Assembly (NCBI GenBank): GCA_902786355.1
Contig: CADABZ010000001.1
Location: forward strand, 62,001-126,000
Direction of reading: 5' to 3'
Length of the DNA stretch: 64,000 nucleotides
Source of the DNA: an uncultured Eubacteriales bacterium
GTDB lineage: Bacteria > Bacillota > Clostridia > Peptostreptococcales > Anaerovoracaceae
Numbering within the stretch: position 1 is the first letter of the stretch; each line of letters opens with the position of its first letter. Under the pieces are notes generated by a model. The model was given only the letters and a program-made list of their open reading frames with translations, made no database searches and had not been told where the DNA came from. Of the stretch, positions 26,002 to 32,131 are shown piece after piece. A program made the position numbers and the translations under genes.

Positions 26002-26448
26002 ATGCGCATATTAGGTCTGGACGTAGGTGACAGAACAGTGGGGGTCGCGGTCAGCGACCCTCTTGGCATAATTGCGACAGGTGTCACGACCATTGAGAGA
26101 GTCGGCATCCGCAAGGATACGGGCAAAGTCATTGACTATATCAGGGAATATGACTGCCCGCTTGTTGTCATGGGGCTTCCGCTCAATCTCGATGATTCTG
26201 ATTCCGTCCAGACTGAAAAGGTCCGGGAATTCCGTACCATGCTTGAGAATAAACTGAGGAGCCTCGGACCGCTTTCAAAGGTAAAAGTCGTCTGGCAGGA
26301 TGAGAGATATTCGACAGCCGAAGCTGAAGAAGTCCTTATAGAAGCCGGGATGAGCAGGGAAGACCGCAAGAAGATCATAGACCGTCAGGCAGCTATCGTT
26401 ATTCTGCAGAGATATCTCGACAGCATGCCGACAGAGGAGAAGATATGA
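26002..26448 (+). CDS. ruvX: Holliday junction resolvase-like protein RuvX/YqgF
   Basis: 148 residues, RNase H fold; acts in pre-16S rRNA 5' end maturation or as a resolvase. Catalytic acids in the expected places: LGLDVGDRTVGVAVSD, WQDERYSTAEAE, DRQAAIVILQRYLD. Its stop overlaps the start of the LysR gene by 4 bases. Confidence 0.95.
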   Translation: MRILGLDVGDRTVGVAVSDPLGIIATGVTTIERVGIRKDTGKVIDYIREYDCPLVVMGLPLNLDDSDSVQTEKVREFRTMLENKLRSLGPLSKVKVVWQDERYSTAEAEEVLIEAGMSREDRKKIIDRQAAIVILQRYLDSMPTEEKI

Positions 26449-27365
26449 ACGACCTTCAGATAGATTATTTCATGGCAGTCGCCACTAATCTGAGCTTTAC
26501 CAAGACTTCCGAGGAGCTCTATGTCTCTCAGCCGGCGATATCCAGACAGATATCACAGATGGAGAAAGAACTCGGCGTGAGGCTTTTTCGGCGCAACAAC
26601 CAGAAGACAGAGCTGACTGAAGCCGGCAGACTGTATTTTGATCTTTTCAGCAGATATAAGGCTGACATGATAAGGACCAAGATCGAGGTTGACAGGGTTC
26701 TCGGCAGGAAGAAGGGTGTCATAAGAGTAGGTTTCCTTGAAGGCTGGGATCTGTTCGGTATCATACCGCCTCTTACAAAGCGTTTCGCAGAGGTTTATCC
26801 TGAGATCGAACTGATCATCAACTGCTGCGGGATCAAAGAACTGGCAGCTTCGCTTCTCAACGGATCCATGGATATCATCGTGACTATGAACAACTCTGTC
26901 AACATGCACAGAGAGTTCAACTGCACACATGCAGCGACCATAGGCAAGATCCTTCTGTTTTCTGCTGACCATCCGCTGGCAGGGTCTGAGAACATATCCC
27001 TCAAGGATTTCAGCGGAGACACATTTATAGCACCTTATGAGAATGCTGATGATCTGGTCATAGAATCCATCTCATCCTATACAAGACCGTTCGGGTTCAT
27101 ACCGCGTCTGCGTTTTGTAAAGAATCACGAATCCATGATCACCTGTGTCAGAAACAACATGGGCGTTGCGATCGCTGATGAATGGGTATGGGCAAAAGGA
27201 GCTGCAGATCTTCGCTGGATACCGTTCAGTGCAAGAGACATAATTTCTGTCGTCAGGATGTCAGTGAGAGAAAGTGACCCGATACTTATGGTGGAGAGAT
27301 TACTTATTGACATAATCAATGAACAGGAGTCAAATAAATCAGGCGCTGAAACCGTTGATATTTAA
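26445..27365 (+). CDS. LysR-family transcriptional regulator
   Basis: 306 residues: winged HTH at 1-60 (DYFMAVATNLSFTKTSEELY, SQPAISRQISQMEKELG), linker helix, then a periplasmic-binding-protein-like effector domain (GVIRVGFLEGW..., about 90-295). The ATG overlaps the ruvX stop, so it is co-translated with a housekeeping operon rather than divergent from its target as most LysR genes are. The downstream gaps hold many ATAAC/GTTAT half-sites, which suggests it controls the following accessory genes. The ligand cannot be predicted. Confidence 0.93.
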   Translation: MNDLQIDYFMAVATNLSFTKTSEELYVSQPAISRQISQMEKELGVRLFRRNNQKTELTEAGRLYFDLFSRYKADMIRTKIEVDRVLGRKKGVIRVGFLEGWDLFGIIPPLTKRFAEVYPEIELIINCCGIKELAASLLNGSMDIIVTMNNSVNMHREFNCTHAATIGKILLFSADHPLAGSENISLKDFSGDTFIAPYENADDLVIESISSYTRPFGFIPRLRFVKNHESMITCVRNNMGVAIADEWVWAKGAADLRWIPFSARDIISVVRMSVRESDPILMVERLLIDIINEQESNKSGAETVDI

Positions 27366-27370
27366 GGTTT

Positions 27371-27443
27371 ATAACTAATAGGTTATGAACCTCTATGTGA
27401 ATAACAATTATACTATACAGGTTATCTGGGATAAACTATAACC
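27371..27443. promoter_or_regulatory. Cluster of ATAAC/GTTAT half-sites, candidate LysR operator
   Basis: Half-sites at 27371 (ATAAC), 27381 (GGTTAT), 27401 (ATAAC), 27420 (GGTTAT) and 27438 (ATAACC), with inverted pairs ATAAC-N6-GTTAT and GGTTAT-N12-ATAACC. LysR proteins bind imperfect dyads of this kind. The last pair overlaps the terminator. Confidence 0.45.
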
Positions 27444-27466
27444 CAGATAAACCTGTTTCTTTTTTA
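27418..27466 (+). terminator. Terminator after the LysR gene
   Basis: Stem CAGGTTATCTGGG (27418-27430) with CCCAGATAAACCTG (27442-27455; one bulged A), followed by TTTCTTTTTT. Confidence 0.8.
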
Positions 27467-27528
27467 ACAGAATTATTCATCAAAACAAATTTATTTCGGA
27501 AACTTTATTGAAGGGGAGAAAAAGTATT

Positions 27529-28011
27529 ATGAAAAGCAAAAAGCTTACTGCTGTATATGCACTGATCATGGACCTTCCACTTTGCATAGTTGTCACAATC
27601 GTTGCACTTGCACTTGGCGGGAATCTTACACTCAAAGCATTCATTCCTAGCTGCATCCTTGCTTACATCGTTACATTCATCCTTAACTTCCTTCCAGTTG
27701 GAAAATGGGGTGTTGATTTTGCTATGAAGCACGCACAGCCTGGCACACTCAAGTTCGGACTGCTCGTAAATGCAGTTATCGCACTTGTGTTCACTCTGGT
27801 TCTTGACCTCGTTATGACATTCTTCGGCGTAGTAGTAACAGCTCACGCTCCTATGAGTGAGTTCTTGAAGGCTGTTGTAGGAGGATTCATCCCATGCTAC
27901 ATCGCTTCATTTATCGTAGCATTCCTCTGGAATCCTATCGCTGACAAGTGGTCAAGAGCTATCTGCAATGAGCCTGAGCAGCCAATGGGACCTGGACCTG
28001 AGCAGAAGTAA
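27529..28011 (+). CDS. Four-helix membrane protein with internal duplication, function unknown
   Basis: 160 residues with four hydrophobic segments. The two halves are related: FIPSCILAYIVTFILNF and, about 85 residues on, FIPCYIASFIVAFLWNP, each ending in a short GKW/DKW turn. This resembles small DUF2798-type membrane proteins, but I do not assign a family. The ATG at 27529 is used because GGGGAG lies about 11 bases upstream; a TTG at 27508 precedes that SD. Cytosolic Pro/Gly tail. It is the first gene after the LysR regulator. Confidence 0.8.
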   Translation: MKSKKLTAVYALIMDLPLCIVVTIVALALGGNLTLKAFIPSCILAYIVTFILNFLPVGKWGVDFAMKHAQPGTLKFGLLVNAVIALVFTLVLDLVMTFFGVVVTAHAPMSEFLKAVVGGFIPCYIASFIVAFLWNPIADKWSRAICNEPEQPMGPGPEQK

Positions 28012-28062
28012 AACAGACAGCTTCTGTGGTTTTATATCTCAAACTTTTCACCAATCGTTCTT

Positions 28063-28132
28063 ATAACATCCGCCGCAGGATGTTACAATAACAGCAGACT
28101 CATAACTGACCCGCAGTATTGCTGTCAGTTAT
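28063..28132. promoter_or_regulatory. Two dyads before the flavodoxin gene, candidate LysR operators
   Basis: Dyad 1: TAACATCC (28064-28071) / GGATGTTA (28078-28085), overlapping a TACAAT -10-like element (28084-28089). Dyad 2: ATAACTGAC (28102-28110) / GTCAGTTAT (28124-28132). Both start and end in the same ATAAC/GTTA half-sites seen after the LysR gene. Confidence 0.5.
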
Positions 28133-28176
28133 AGATATCAATCAATCTAAGAAACATATTGCAGGAGGGAAACAAT

Positions 28177-29169
28177 ATGAAAATTCTGGGAATCTCTTTC
28201 GGAACCAAGAACGGCAACAATGACACCATGTGCAGAGTAGCACTCGAAGAGTGCCAGAAGCTCGGCGCTGAGATCGAATTCATCCACGCTTTTGACTGGG
28301 ATCTTCAGACATGCACAGGCTGCGTAGCATGCTCAAGAGGACTCGTAATGGGCAAGGGCATGATCTGCACAAGAAAAGACGATTTCAAGGCTCTTTATGA
28401 GAAGATGGTAGAAGCTGACGGCGTACTCATAGTAGATCCTATCTATGAATCCGGCGGCTCCGGTCTCTTCCATATCTGCTGCGACCGTATGGGTCCCGGA
28501 CATGATACAGGTATGCTCTTGATGCTCGACGGAAAACTTAAAGAGCAGGGCAAGGAAGGCCTGAATCCTCGTTACTTCATGCAGAAGGCAATTTCATTCG
28601 TTGGTATCGGCGGTTCTGACTGGGCCTGCCGTGTAGAGACTGACCATGCAATGCTGGCTATGTCCCCGGGCTGGAAAGTTGTCAACAACGATTTCTTCTC
28701 CTGGAGCAAGGATGTTCTCATGCAGGACGATAAGGTAGAGCGCATGAAGGAAATCGGCAGAAACCTTGTTGAAGCTGCTCAGTACATTATCGACAACCAT
28801 GTCATGATTCCGGGATCAGAGAATCTGGATCTCTGGAAGGGCGAGGAAGGCGGATGCCCGCATTGCCACAGCAACAATTTCTACATTTTCCCTGGCACTA
28901 ACCATGCAGTCTGCGAACTCTGCGGTCTTGAAGGCCACCTTGAGATGACAGACAAGGGCGTTAAGCTCGTAAACGATCCTGAGCTTGGCGAAAACGGAAC
29001 TATCGAACACTGCCACGATCTGCTTTCAGGAAAAGCTGCACACGGCAAGGACATCTTCGAAAACGAGGGCAGACTCATGAACCTCTTCAAGGATCCTGAG
29101 TTCAAGGCAAGAAAAGAGCACTACACAAGCGTTGTAGCTCCTACACCATCCCCATCCAAGAGCAAATAA
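28177..29169 (+). CDS. Flavodoxin-fold NAD(P)H/FMN reductase-like protein with C-terminal zinc ribbon
   Basis: 330 residues. Residues 1-215 have the NADPH-dependent FMN reductase (flavodoxin) layout: ILGISFGTKNGNN phosphate loop, CTGCVACSRG, and DGVLIVDPIYESGGSG. After a short linker, CPHCHSNNF...CELCG (about 229-250) forms a rubredoxin-like or zinc-ribbon knuckle, then a Ser/Pro/Lys tail. Such an added metal site could pass electrons or recruit a partner. AGGAGGG lies before the ATG at 28177, which excludes the upstream TTG. Substrate unknown. Confidence 0.8.
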   Translation: MKILGISFGTKNGNNDTMCRVALEECQKLGAEIEFIHAFDWDLQTCTGCVACSRGLVMGKGMICTRKDDFKALYEKMVEADGVLIVDPIYESGGSGLFHICCDRMGPGHDTGMLLMLDGKLKEQGKEGLNPRYFMQKAISFVGIGGSDWACRVETDHAMLAMSPGWKVVNNDFFSWSKDVLMQDDKVERMKEIGRNLVEAAQYIIDNHVMIPGSENLDLWKGEEGGCPHCHSNNFYIFPGTNHAVCELCGLEGHLEMTDKGVKLVNDPELGENGTIEHCHDLLSGKAAHGKDIFENEGRLMNLFKDPEFKARKEHYTSVVAPTPSPSKSK

Positions 29170-29187
29170 TATCGAATAGATAAATCA

Positions 29188-29221
29188 AGGCAGGGGAGCT
29201 ATGGCGACCCTGCCTGTTTTA
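29188..29221 (+). terminator. Possible terminator or attenuator inside the accessory operon
   Basis: Stem AGGCAGGG (29188-29195) / CCCTGCCT (29208-29215), then GTTTTAT. The T run is short, so partial read-through to the EthD-like gene is likely. Confidence 0.6.
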
Positions 29222-29286
29222 TACCACTAATACCTGACGCAGGCAGCTGGGATAATGCCTGATCAGTTGTGAAAGGAGTACATTCA

Positions 29287-30162
29287 ATGAACAGACCTGA
29301 ATTCTATCCGGTAAGAAGTATCATTCTTGTTGACCTCGCTCATGAGGACTACAGGATCAAGCTCGAGAACTGGCTGTACAGATATCATGTTCCAGACAGC
29401 ATCTCACAGTTCGGACCATATGTAAGCAAGTACGCTTTCTATCCGGCACTTCCTACTCCTCCGGGCGGCGCAAGATTCGGAACAGTAAGAATGCAGATGA
29501 CAGAGCACTACTGGCTCGCTAACCCTAACGATGTAGGCTTTGCCAAGGATCATCACAAGATCCTGACTGAGTACTTCCCGACAGATGTACTCGTATGGCA
29601 GAACAACATTCCTGACATGGGACACTCACACTCTGTTGAAAAGTCTGAGGAAGTCAATATCGAAGGCGATGCTGCACGTTCGACAAAGGGCGATGAGGCT
29701 GCAGGAACAGTTCCTTTCATCTTCGCTTTTATCCCTGTATGGTGGGAAGACGACTTCAAGGGCGAAGGACGCACAGTTGAAGACGGACCTAACTACAGAT
29801 GGCAGTTCGTTGTCAGGTATCCTGAAGGCGTAAGCGCTGAAGAAGGCGACAAGTGGCTCAAGGAAGAGTTCATCCCTGCATGGACAGCTCACGACGGATG
29901 CACAAGATGCGTATCCAGCAAGATCAAGAAGGAAGTCAACGGATGTGACTTCGACCGTATCGTTGAGATGTGGTTCGAGTGCCAGTCTGCATGGGTGGAC
30001 GCATGCAAGGAAGCTGCTGAGAAATGCGCTAAGCCTGCATGGGCTGAGACAGAGGATTTCCCGTATCTGAAGAAGTCCTACGGCATCAGCGGCATCTTCC
30101 TGTCAGACTATGCTAGATCAGACAATCTCAACCAGTATCACGGTTACATCACAATGAGATAA
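29287..30162 (+). CDS. Double EthD-like (dimeric alpha/beta-barrel) protein
   Basis: 291 residues, soluble. It appears to hold two ferredoxin-like EthD modules: residues about 5-105 (SIILVDLAHEDYRIKLENWL, ... YWLANPNDVGFAKDHH) and about 150-250 (YPEGVSAEEGDKWLKEEFIP, ... IVEMWFECQSAWVDACKEAA). EthD-type proteins are small partners or enzymes in catabolic and polyketide-like pathways. Start at ATG 29287 with AAAGGAG 8 bases upstream. Role unknown; neighbours suggest small-molecule turnover. Confidence 0.65.
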   Translation: MNRPEFYPVRSIILVDLAHEDYRIKLENWLYRYHVPDSISQFGPYVSKYAFYPALPTPPGGARFGTVRMQMTEHYWLANPNDVGFAKDHHKILTEYFPTDVLVWQNNIPDMGHSHSVEKSEEVNIEGDAARSTKGDEAAGTVPFIFAFIPVWWEDDFKGEGRTVEDGPNYRWQFVVRYPEGVSAEEGDKWLKEEFIPAWTAHDGCTRCVSSKIKKEVNGCDFDRIVEMWFECQSAWVDACKEAAEKCAKPAWAETEDFPYLKKSYGISGIFLSDYARSDNLNQYHGYITMR

Positions 30163-30178
30163 TCGGTATATTGTGAAT

Positions 30179-30664
30179 ATGAGCAGAAAAGAAATTCTGA
30201 CACTCGCTTTACTTATTGCAATACTGCCTCCGGCATGGGCTGTAGTCAGTCCATACCTTGGCAACACTGTCGGTCCTGTAGCACTTATAGCAGCAGGAAT
30301 ATACGGAGCCAACGGCAACAAGTGGGAAGATGCTCACAGGATAGCCCTTGGTTACCTGGCCGGTGATATCTGGGCATATGCAGCCACTGTGATCATGTCT
30401 CTGACACCGATAAATCAGGACCTGACGCTGTTTCTTGTACTGGCAGTACTCGGATTCCTTGCAGTCGTAATATCGCAGTATATGCCGAAATTTTTCTATA
30501 TGCCGTCATGGCTCGCAGGCTGGGCGATAGGCATGCTGGCTATGAATCTTGACCACACAACACCGCTTCTGAGCCTGACTGCTCAGATAGCAGCAGCAAT
30601 GCTGGTCGGAGTGTATTATGTCGGCGCACTTGTAGATAAGCTGCACAGGATGATGAACAGGTAA
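30179..30664 (+). CDS. DUF1097-like integral membrane protein
   Basis: 161 residues, about five hydrophobic helices with Gly/Ala-rich turns (LGNTVGPVALIAAGIYGANGN, YLAGDIWAYAATVI given in parts; MPSWLAGWAIGMLAMNLDHT). Resembles DUF1097 proteins. No strong SD is visible; a GTG at 30173 two codons upstream is equally possible. It lies 16 bases after the EthD-like gene and 25 before the LVIVD gene, so it belongs to the same transcript and may be a transporter-like partner. Confidence 0.7.
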   Translation: MSRKEILTLALLIAILPPAWAVVSPYLGNTVGPVALIAAGIYGANGNKWEDAHRIALGYLAGDIWAYAATVIMSLTPINQDLTLFLVLAVLGFLAVVISQYMPKFFYMPSWLAGWAIGMLAMNLDHTTPLLSLTAQIAAAMLVGVYYVGALVDKLHRMMNR

Positions 30665-30689
30665 AGCTATCAAACAAAGGAGATAATAA

Positions 30690-32081
30690 ATGGGTAAAGG
30701 CAAATATTTCTACTCGAAGGGTGAGGGCAACGACGGTTACATCAAGAACCTCGAAGTGCTTTCATACTGCGATATGGACGGCACATGCGGCATGTTCCAG
30801 ATGGGACTTTATCGTACAGAAGCCGGAAGATATCTGCTCTACGGTGCCTGCTTTGCAGCAGGTCCTGAAGGAGTAGGCATCATGATCAGTGATGTCACTG
30901 ATCCGAGAAATCCGGTCTTCATCAAGAAGTGGCGCCCGTTTGATATCGATGAGTATCCTACAACATCGATCCCTAAGCTCCAGATCGCTGATGACAAGCT
31001 CATCTTCGCTCTGACTTCAGGATCGGGCCCGAGCGTTCTCGTAGGCGACCGCGCCAAGATGAAGAGCCTCCAGGGCATCATGATCTATGACCTCAAGAAT
31101 GATCCTGAGAACCCTGAATACCTCGGATACTGGGACTGCGGAGTTCCTTATTCGATGGGCGTTCACAGATTCATGTACAATGGCGGCGACTATGTTCATC
31201 TGTCATCTGAGGCTGACGAGTTCGAAGGACTCATCTACAGGATAGTAAGCATCAAGGATCCGGCCAATCCGGTCGAGGTAGGCCGCTGGTGGGCTCCTCA
31301 TCAGTACATCTACGGTGTACCTGGAAGAGAAGTAGACCACTCGGCACCGCATAATCCTGACTTCATGGATAAAGGCTGGCTGCACGGCCCTCCGTTCGTA
31401 GTAGGCGACAAGGTTTACTGCGGATACTGTGGCGACGGACTGTATGTCCTCGACATTTCGGACATCACACATCCTAAGGCTCTCGGAAACCTCAAGCTTA
31501 TGCCTGCTTTCTCAAGCAGACTCGCCGGTGCAAGAACACACACAGCTCTTCCTCTTGTCGGCAGAGACCTCGTCGTAGTAACCAACGAAGGCGAGAGATT
31601 CGGCTTTATCAAGGACGGAGTGGTAACACAGGCTCAGTCGATGAACAACCTGCACATGGTAGATGTAAGCGATCCGACCAACCCTGTACTTATAGCTGAG
31701 TTCCCGTATCCTGAAGTTCCTGAGGATTTCCCTGCACCGAACTTCAATACATACATGCTCGCTGAAGGATCAAAGGGCGGACCTTTCGGACCTCACAACG
31801 TTCACGAGCCTATGAGCAACAAGCCATGGCTTGAGCAGAGAAACGATGTAGTCTATGACTGCTATTTCGCAGCCGGACTCAGGATCTATGACGTATCCGA
31901 TCCTTTCTATATCAAGGAGAAGGCATACTTCATTCCTCCGAATCCGACCAAGAAATGCTTCCCGTTCCCTGGCCCTATGATGGCAATGACAGAGGACGTT
32001 GTCGTAGACGACAGAGGCAACATCATCATCGATGCCAACAGCGATGGATTCTACATCCTCCGCAAGACATACGAAGACTGA
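30690..32081 (+). CDS. LVIVD-repeat beta-propeller protein
   Basis: 463 residues with about six repeats of the LVIVD type: GVGIMISDVTDPRNPVFI, GIMIYDLKNDPENPEYLG, YRIVSIKDPANPVEVGRW, GLYVLDISDITHPKALGN, LHMVDVSDPTNPVLIAEF, GLRIYDVSDPFYIKEKAY. No signal peptide or membrane segment, so it is predicted to be cytosolic, unlike many family members. Conserved His-rich patches (DHSAPHNP, GPHNVHEP) could bind metal or substrate. AAAGGAG precedes the ATG. Last gene of the accessory operon, closed by a strong terminator. Confidence 0.8.
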   Translation: MGKGKYFYSKGEGNDGYIKNLEVLSYCDMDGTCGMFQMGLYRTEAGRYLLYGACFAAGPEGVGIMISDVTDPRNPVFIKKWRPFDIDEYPTTSIPKLQIADDKLIFALTSGSGPSVLVGDRAKMKSLQGIMIYDLKNDPENPEYLGYWDCGVPYSMGVHRFMYNGGDYVHLSSEADEFEGLIYRIVSIKDPANPVEVGRWWAPHQYIYGVPGREVDHSAPHNPDFMDKGWLHGPPFVVGDKVYCGYCGDGLYVLDISDITHPKALGNLKLMPAFSSRLAGARTHTALPLVGRDLVVVTNEGERFGFIKDGVVTQAQSMNNLHMVDVSDPTNPVLIAEFPYPEVPEDFPAPNFNTYMLAEGSKGGPFGPHNVHEPMSNKPWLEQRNDVVYDCYFAAGLRIYDVSDPFYIKEKAYFIPPNPTKKCFPFPGPMMAMTEDVVVDDRGNIIIDANSDGFYILRKTYED

Positions 32082-32095
32082 TAACAGAGTTAGTC

Positions 32096-32131
32096 AAAAG
32101 GCCGGCAGTACATCGCTGCCGGCCTTTTTTG
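32096..32131 (+). terminator. Strong terminator after the LVIVD gene
   Basis: Stem AAAAGGCCGGCAG (32096-32108) / CTGCCGGCCTTTT (32116-32128) with loop TACATCG, running into TTTTTTG. Confidence 0.9.

Follow-up and report, generated by a model that had tools for sequence, protein, structure and literature searches.

A flavone reductase and chalcone isomerase locus with a candidate auronol-cleaving LVIVD propeller in an uncultured Eubacteriales bacterium

Introduction

Which compound is broken down by a bacterial locus that pairs a flavin-dependent reductase with a chalcone isomerase, and what does the beta-propeller protein encoded at its end contribute? We addressed this question in a 64,000-nucleotide stretch of DNA from an uncultured Eubacteriales bacterium (contig CADABZ010000001.1 of assembly GCA_902786355.1, positions 62,001 to 126,000; hereafter the window), in which six co-directional genes at 26445-32081 encode a LysR-type regulator, a small membrane protein (TM4), a flavone reductase (FLR), a bacterial chalcone isomerase (CHI), a DUF1097 membrane protein and an LVIVD propeller. 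The initial annotation had correctly placed here a one-regulator run of six adjacent genes reading in the same direction, and had supposed that a small, perhaps aromatic, compound is taken up and turned over reductively. On the turnover that proposal pointed the right way: FLR and CHI break down flavonoids, and the assignment of the locus to flavone or flavonol degradation, with FLR, CHI and the flavonoid link, is well supported.

The propeller is the new element of the locus. Gut bacteria convert quercetin, a common dietary flavonol, to 3,4-dihydroxyphenylacetate, and the enzyme that cleaves the auronol alphitonin was called unknown in 2025 (PMC12203004; this and the other papers are cited from the portions available to us). 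Quercetin yields the arylacetate in C. decagia and the aryllactate in C. scindens, and an arylpyruvate derived from alphitonin has been proposed as a hypothetical intermediate (PMC11170127). A diketone tautomer has been described in CHI action (PMC9694015). The available part of PMC12940152 contains nothing on alphitonin or gene clusters.

Results

Identity of the reductase and the isomerase

Sequence comparison makes the identities of FLR (28177..29169, + strand) and CHI (29287..30162, + strand) near certain. FLR is an ene-reductase dependent on flavin mononucleotide (FMN) with a Cys4 zinc-ribbon-like segment; residues 1-323 of its 330 align to chain residues 1-305 of 310 in 7d38, a solved flavone reductase (phmmer 2e-77). 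The flavoprotein and the zinc-ribbon-like segment in its earlier name, zinc-ribbon flavoprotein, stand, and the name itself gives way to flavone reductase. The match spans nearly the full length, including the C-terminal tail that FLR requires for activity (PMC7862272). G106, W149, H289 and I293 of the window protein correspond to G106, W149, H271 and I275, the four FLR mutants singled out as strongly impaired (PMC7862272), and are invariant in an 11-sequence alignment. The FMN contacts Asn15, Ile89, Glu91, Asp103, Gly146 and Ser147 are kept. The F. plautii contacts Met10, Ser14 and Lys92, which are not shown to define the family and lie outside the four strongly impaired mutants (PMC7862272), are Thr10, Asn14 and Ser92 in the window.

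CHI matches Chalcone_N with 165.4 bits against a curated cut-off of 25 (Pfam 4.9e-49), and its match to the E. ramulus CHI (phmmer 1.5e-92) covers residues 5-291, nearly full length. The catalytic His33 and the pocket residues Tyr48, Thr71 and Gln101 (PMC8361940) correspond to H34, Y49, T72 and Q105 of the window protein, all invariant in a 14-sequence alignment; for both enzymes, residues were mapped by eye from pairwise matches. We reject the reading of this gene as a double EthD-like protein: Pfam lists no EthD family up to E = 1 and returns Chalcone_N instead. Nor does it hold that no role is known for any of these genes when they stand together, as FLR and CHI are already a known pair in F. 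plautii, where their locus tags are adjacent (A4U99_05915 and A4U99_05920; PMC7862272). No relatives of CHI were found in viral contigs.

Linkage of the LVIVD propeller to CHI and FLR

Several lines of evidence from sequence comparison tie the LVIVD propeller (30690..32081, + strand) to both enzymes. We used a family sample of 296 genomes and a class sample of 391. In the family sample CHI occurs in 31 genomes and LVIVD in 36, and all 31 CHI genomes carry LVIVD, against 5 of the 265 genomes without CHI (Fisher p 3.9e-37, uncorrected for relatedness, with 16 of the 31 CHI genomes belonging to one genus). The five are G277 (where a contig border cuts the gene short), G013, G104 (a weak match), G108 and G167. 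Counted by genus, CHI is found in 10/92 and LVIVD in 13/92, and all CHI genera are among the LVIVD genera. The genes also lie close together: in other genomes of the family the stretch around CHI contains LVIVD at 27 of 32 loci and FLR at 26 of 32. A check put forward with the initial annotation, whether the genes stay together elsewhere, was thus largely passed. In the class sample CHI is found in 6/391 genomes (five strong matches and a weak one in G518) and LVIVD in 5/391; the four strong LVIVD matches all occur with CHI, and the fifth is G306 at 3.3e-4.

Four genomes (G032, G060, G124 and G160) have a CHI locus without FLR and LVIVD, both of which lie elsewhere in the genome, the LVIVD being a more divergent form (567-581 bits). 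We considered whether LVIVD tracks FLR rather than CHI and dropped the idea, as these four genomes with an FLR-less CHI locus have FLR elsewhere. FLR matches occur in 73 of the 75 genomes with CHI or LVIVD (exceptions G030 and G167), a count from a profile that also catches paralogues and includes some weak matches (such as G013, G108, G109 and G703). Among the best 80 of 193 LVIVD loci in a scan of named genomes, 42 contain CHI and FLR, 3 CHI only (two at 66 bits), 1 FLR only and 34 neither. CHI is found elsewhere in 27 of the 35 genomes with a CHI-less LVIVD stretch, 26 of them over the cut-off; E. ramulus, E. oxidoreducens, C. puniceum and P. paucivorans are among the genomes in which CHI lies away from the LVIVD stretch. 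The nearest named relatives among these best 80 loci are Mogibacterium-labelled metagenome-assembled genomes obtained from the guts of sheep and goats, along with RUG genomes labelled "uncultured Clostridiales", which are of rumen origin; the bacterium of the window is probably of a similar kind. Taken together, it is very probable that LVIVD takes part in flavonoid breakdown.

Other genes were seen beside LVIVD. In its vicinity L065 (5156-5923), L131 (7505-8260) and L132 carry CHI-like genes of very divergent sequence (66-100 bits), and a fumarate-reductase-like flavoprotein stands directly beside it at L175 (8369-10213) and L065 (7550-9346). A cluster with a pyridoxal-phosphate-dependent decarboxylase of the Orn/DAP/Arg type is found at the LVIVD loci L121, L123, L126, L127 and L133, and in E. 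ramulus adjoins LVIVD.

Phloretin hydrolase and a distant relative

Phloretin hydrolase (Phy) and DAPG hydrolase cut the C-C bond of acyl-phloroglucinols. We looked for this family (PF18089) and found none in the window genome. The search works, since it recovered four copies in G258. Of 33 genomes with CHI and LVIVD, 31 have no Phy (the window genome and 30 of the 32 others); both CHI genomes that lack LVIVD, G455 and G518, do have it. The CHI-FLR locus of these two also encodes a protein of 206 or 225 residues that is a distant relative of Phy: its Pfam matches (0.0015 and 0.00026) are below the cut-off, and profile alignment relates it to Phy (hhalign probability 92.9, E 3.8e-7), with the motifs W-x-P-x-x-H and HxxxE...LPxLY, read by eye, common to both. 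No significant solved relative of this small protein was found (best E 0.42). A strict either/or of LVIVD and the small Phy-like protein was dropped, as C. puniceum has both.

Conserved residues and predicted fold of the propeller

The name LVIVD propeller given in the initial annotation is confirmed by Pfam PF08309 (5.4e-10; 38.9 bits against a cut-off of 20.2). An AF2 model (pLDDT 84.2, pTM 0.89) is mostly beta, and its best Foldseek matches are propellers, the nearest being the Sphingobium TCM1 phosphotriesterase 5hrm (E 7.3e-18). A single-sequence search for solved relatives reached a best E of 0.025; a profile did better, matching 5hrm at 6.7e-9 in short pieces. The phosphotriesterase has a binuclear metal site. 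None of the solved homologues found for LVIVD has a flavonoid substrate.

Among 91 distinct propellers, H159, H284, H369, E300 and D436 are present in all, E302 in 90 and H232 in 83, the last being invariant in a 19-row alignment. E435/D436 immediately precede a predicted strand, and H159, H284 and H369 fall within such strands. This conservation suggests a metal site at the propeller axis, held by the conserved histidines, and the invariant His, Glu and Asp residues suggest that LVIVD is a catalyst.

2-Oxoacid oxidoreductase and kinase neighbours

We surveyed the neighbours of 141 loci, some on repeated contigs, for 2-oxoacid:ferredoxin oxidoreductases (POR or IOR) and for phosphotransbutyrylase-like proteins (PTB) and butyrate kinase (BUK). 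POR or IOR is present at 7/141 loci and PTB or BUK at 8/141. In L083, a close relative of the window with an 89% identical LVIVD, the order is LysR-TM4-FLR-CHI-LVIVD-C25-POR alpha-beta-gamma, with POR co-directional with LVIVD. POR, a PTB-like protein, BUK, LVIVD, FLR and CHI occur together in L111 and L128, and L177 with its continuation L186 contains POR alpha/beta, a PTB-like protein and BUK. IorA and IorB score over their curated cut-offs in G455 (L184) and in C. puniceum (L216, continuing into L101 on the same contig). L217 and L220 have a PTB-like protein and a kinase beside CHI and FLR, and L175 has both near LVIVD in a stretch with no CHI or FLR. L053 contains POR and a coenzyme A (CoA) transferase on the other strand, and in L142 a 2-hydroxyacid dehydrogenase stands between CHI and LVIVD (CHI-CHI-dehydrogenase-LVIVD).

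PTB/BUK and POR/IOR occur at 7 and 7 of 90 loci with CHI or FLR, versus 1 and 0 of 43 LVIVD-only loci, a comparison that is statistically weak given the repeated contigs and an open-reading-frame filter that misses genes. The group of 8 loci counted as having neither wrongly holds L045 and L054 (CHI by tblastn) and L085 (CHI by profile). Because these counts are statistically weak, the 2-oxoacid argument rests on contiguity. A protein of about 230 residues precedes POR alpha in L083 (9413-10111), L053, L111, L128 and L177, with a weak CbiA match in L128.

Layout, regulation and membrane proteins

The six genes are preceded by alaS and ruvX, both named from their translations alone. The LysR-type regulator (26445..27365, + strand; Pfam HTH_1 4.9e-21, LysR_substrate 2.3e-20) is followed by TM4 (27529..28011, + strand), which has no Pfam family above the cut-off; further downstream, the DUF1097 membrane protein (30179..30664, + strand) is confirmed as such by Pfam (1.3e-18). 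The gaps from LysR to LVIVD are 163, 165, 117, 16 and 25 bases, so that the "short gaps" of the initial annotation describe the last two and not the first three. A terminator-like hairpin with a T-run follows LysR at about 27417..27466 on the + strand (fold z -4.81, 0/200 shuffles as stable; inverted repeat 27422-27450), a second hairpin in the FLR-CHI gap (29188..29215, + strand; fold z -4.0) may be a partial terminator, and downstream of LVIVD lies a strong terminator-like hairpin at about 32096..32130 on the + strand (fold z -6.87, 0/200 shuffles as stable). A simple consensus terminator scan gave 4 sites against 4.6 expected, and these three hairpins were not among them. Between TM4 and FLR, 28057-28132 contains two hairpins, one with arms ATAACTGAC/GTCAGTTAT, which are possible regulator sites.

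LysR is probably the regulator of the locus: such regulation remains likely because a LysR-family gene was matched in 29 of 32 related CHI stretches (exceptions L038, L051 and L063). Its co-transcription with the other five genes is doubtful because of the hairpin and T-run behind it and because its start lies inside the end of ruvX, with a 4-base overlap of the LysR start and the ruvX stop. LysR may instead be transcribed together with ruvX; control over all five genes is possible, although the hairpin speaks against simple co-transcription. PrpR-like sigma-54 activators are found in four CHI-FLR clusters (L177, L184, L185 and L216), so control is perhaps not always by LysR alone.

DUF1097, a possible transporter, lies near CHI in many loci, and TM4 adjoins CHI in most Mogibacterium-like loci and also in four loci whose stretch lacks FLR and LVIVD (L040, L041, L042 and L045, three of the four with a DUF1097 match); these four genomes carry FLR and LVIVD at other places. 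Kinship between TM4 and the DUF1097 protein was looked for and found no support.

Discussion

We propose that FLR would reduce the C2-C3 bond of flavones or flavonols to give flavanones or flavanonols, and that CHI would open the C-ring, taking flavanonols through a chalcone and its 1,2-diketone tautomer to the auronol, as from taxifolin to alphitonin. LVIVD would then act as a hydrolase on the auronol or on its diketone, cutting where the carbonyl joins the phloroglucinol ring and releasing phloroglucinol and an arylpyruvate; a metal bound by the conserved histidines at the propeller axis would probably take part. The arylpyruvate could be converted to arylacetate with a gain of ATP by a 2-oxoacid:ferredoxin oxidoreductase with PTB and BUK (or a CoA-transferase), or alternatively to aryllactate by a 2-hydroxyacid dehydrogenase. 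The two membrane proteins, TM4 and DUF1097, may serve transport. We infer the arylpyruvate fate, the regulation and the transport. For the explanation as a whole, from FLR, CHI and auronol cleavage by LVIVD to the fate of the arylpyruvate, LysR and transport, we estimate a probability of about 0.5. The single step of LVIVD acting as the C-C hydrolase of the auronol or its diketone is a proposition with roughly equal odds either way. More tentative, with odds somewhat below even, is the general claim that CHI/FLR-linked LVIVD proteins form a new C-C hydrolase family, unrelated to Phy, that turns auronols into phloroglucinol and arylpyruvates and is coupled to ATP through a dedicated oxidoreductase-PTB-kinase module.

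A number of observations weigh against this proposal. We infer both the LVIVD reaction and, from conservation, the putative metal site, and the best Foldseek match has a TM-score of 0.60 with a root-mean-square deviation of 7.7. Two genomes with CHI and LVIVD also carry Phy, one of them in four copies; G455 and G518, with FLR and a CHI match that is weak in G518, have full Phy genes and no LVIVD; and in C. puniceum the small Phy-like protein adjoins LVIVD. Of the 35 genomes whose LVIVD stretch is free of CHI, eight show none elsewhere (their completeness is not stated). Oxidoreductase genes are lacking at 134/141 loci and PTB/kinase genes at 133/141, and in the window locus neither POR/IOR nor PTB/BUK is adjacent, with IorA elsewhere in the genome. 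POR alpha matches the VorB model over its cut-off, and the beta and gamma subunits, PTB and CoA-transferase are below theirs, so these names are loose; the L142 dehydrogenase fits phosphoglycerate dehydrogenase best, again below the cut-off. Finally, C. scindens makes aryllactate without a recognised CHI, as far as the available part of PMC11170127 tells.

The same observations bear on other explanations. LVIVD could replace Phy on dihydrochalcones, cleaving phloretin to phloroglucinol and a 3-arylpropionate after an enoate reductase has acted on the chalcone. The near-complete absence of Phy from genomes with CHI and LVIVD fits this substitution, and the window genome has four OYE-family matches elsewhere, yet there is none on the window's contig, and the reaction yields no 2-oxo acid and leaves the POR/IOR neighbours unexplained; we consider it unlikely. 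Equally unlikely, in our estimate, is that LVIVD performs a different flavonoid step, such as isomerisation or tautomerisation, opening of the auronol ring, a step before FLR or non-catalytic binding. Beta-propellers have many functions, and the substrates of the solved homologues leave room for such a role, but the invariant His, Glu and Asp residues suggest catalysis, and the Phy-like protein found in this setting points to hydrolysis of a C-C bond.

The auronol hydrolase proposal also draws on the neighbours, and these might say nothing about the LVIVD product if POR, PTB and BUK serve general fermentation or the use of phloroglucinol and stand there by chance. Their presence at so few of the 141 loci, and a VorB-type subunit that is not by name specific for arylpyruvate, speak for this explanation. 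On the other hand, in L083, L111, L128 and L177 the POR/PTB/BUK genes form a contiguous run with LVIVD and read in its direction, and two CHI-FLR loci carry indolepyruvate-type IorAB instead. We rate a chance neighbourhood as a little less probable still than either alternative for LVIVD itself.

The idea of an arylpyruvate comes from PMC11170127; the assignment of LVIVD, the oxidoreductase and the kinase is new here. In open-licence full-text literature, searched by titles and abstract openings, no LVIVD protein was tied to flavonoids and no alphitonin-cleaving enzyme was named. FLR and CHI are known already. By these searches, the position of the propeller within the pathway is new, and so is the energy-conserving module. 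The locus gives one concrete gene, substrate and set of products for the auronol cleavage step. If the proposal is true, it would define a new enzyme class, make flavonol-degrading species predictable from genomes and explain why arylacetates and aryllactates both arise.

Comparison with known systems

One of the closest described arrangements is the FLR-CHI pair of F. plautii, where FLR was discovered in a partner search starting from CHI and phloretin hydrolase (PMC7862272). The window resembles it in having the two genes as neighbours with the important residues kept, and adds LVIVD, DUF1097 and TM4; the available part of PMC7862272 mentions no LVIVD gene, and the F. plautii genome itself lay outside our comparison. 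With the E. ramulus pathway (CHI, Fcr/ERED and Phy) the window shares a CHI homologue. E. ramulus also encodes an LVIVD protein (L127) and two CHI-FLR pairs (L213 and L214), with LVIVD outside the CHI stretch, and the window genome, unlike the E. ramulus pathway, has no Phy. In C. butyricum, with its FLR-Fcr-Phy genes, FLR likewise starts the pathway, but CHI-type ring contraction was not observed there (PMC11868195), and the window has CHI and LVIVD in place of Fcr and Phy. The bond that LVIVD is proposed to cut is the one cut by the Phy/DAPG hydrolases, with which no sequence kinship was seen (no PF18089 match; hhalign probability 0.1 between the small Phy-like pair and LVIVD). The Sphingobium TCM1 phosphotriesterase offers the nearest fold for LVIVD, but a remote one, in an enzyme acting on a different class of substrate.

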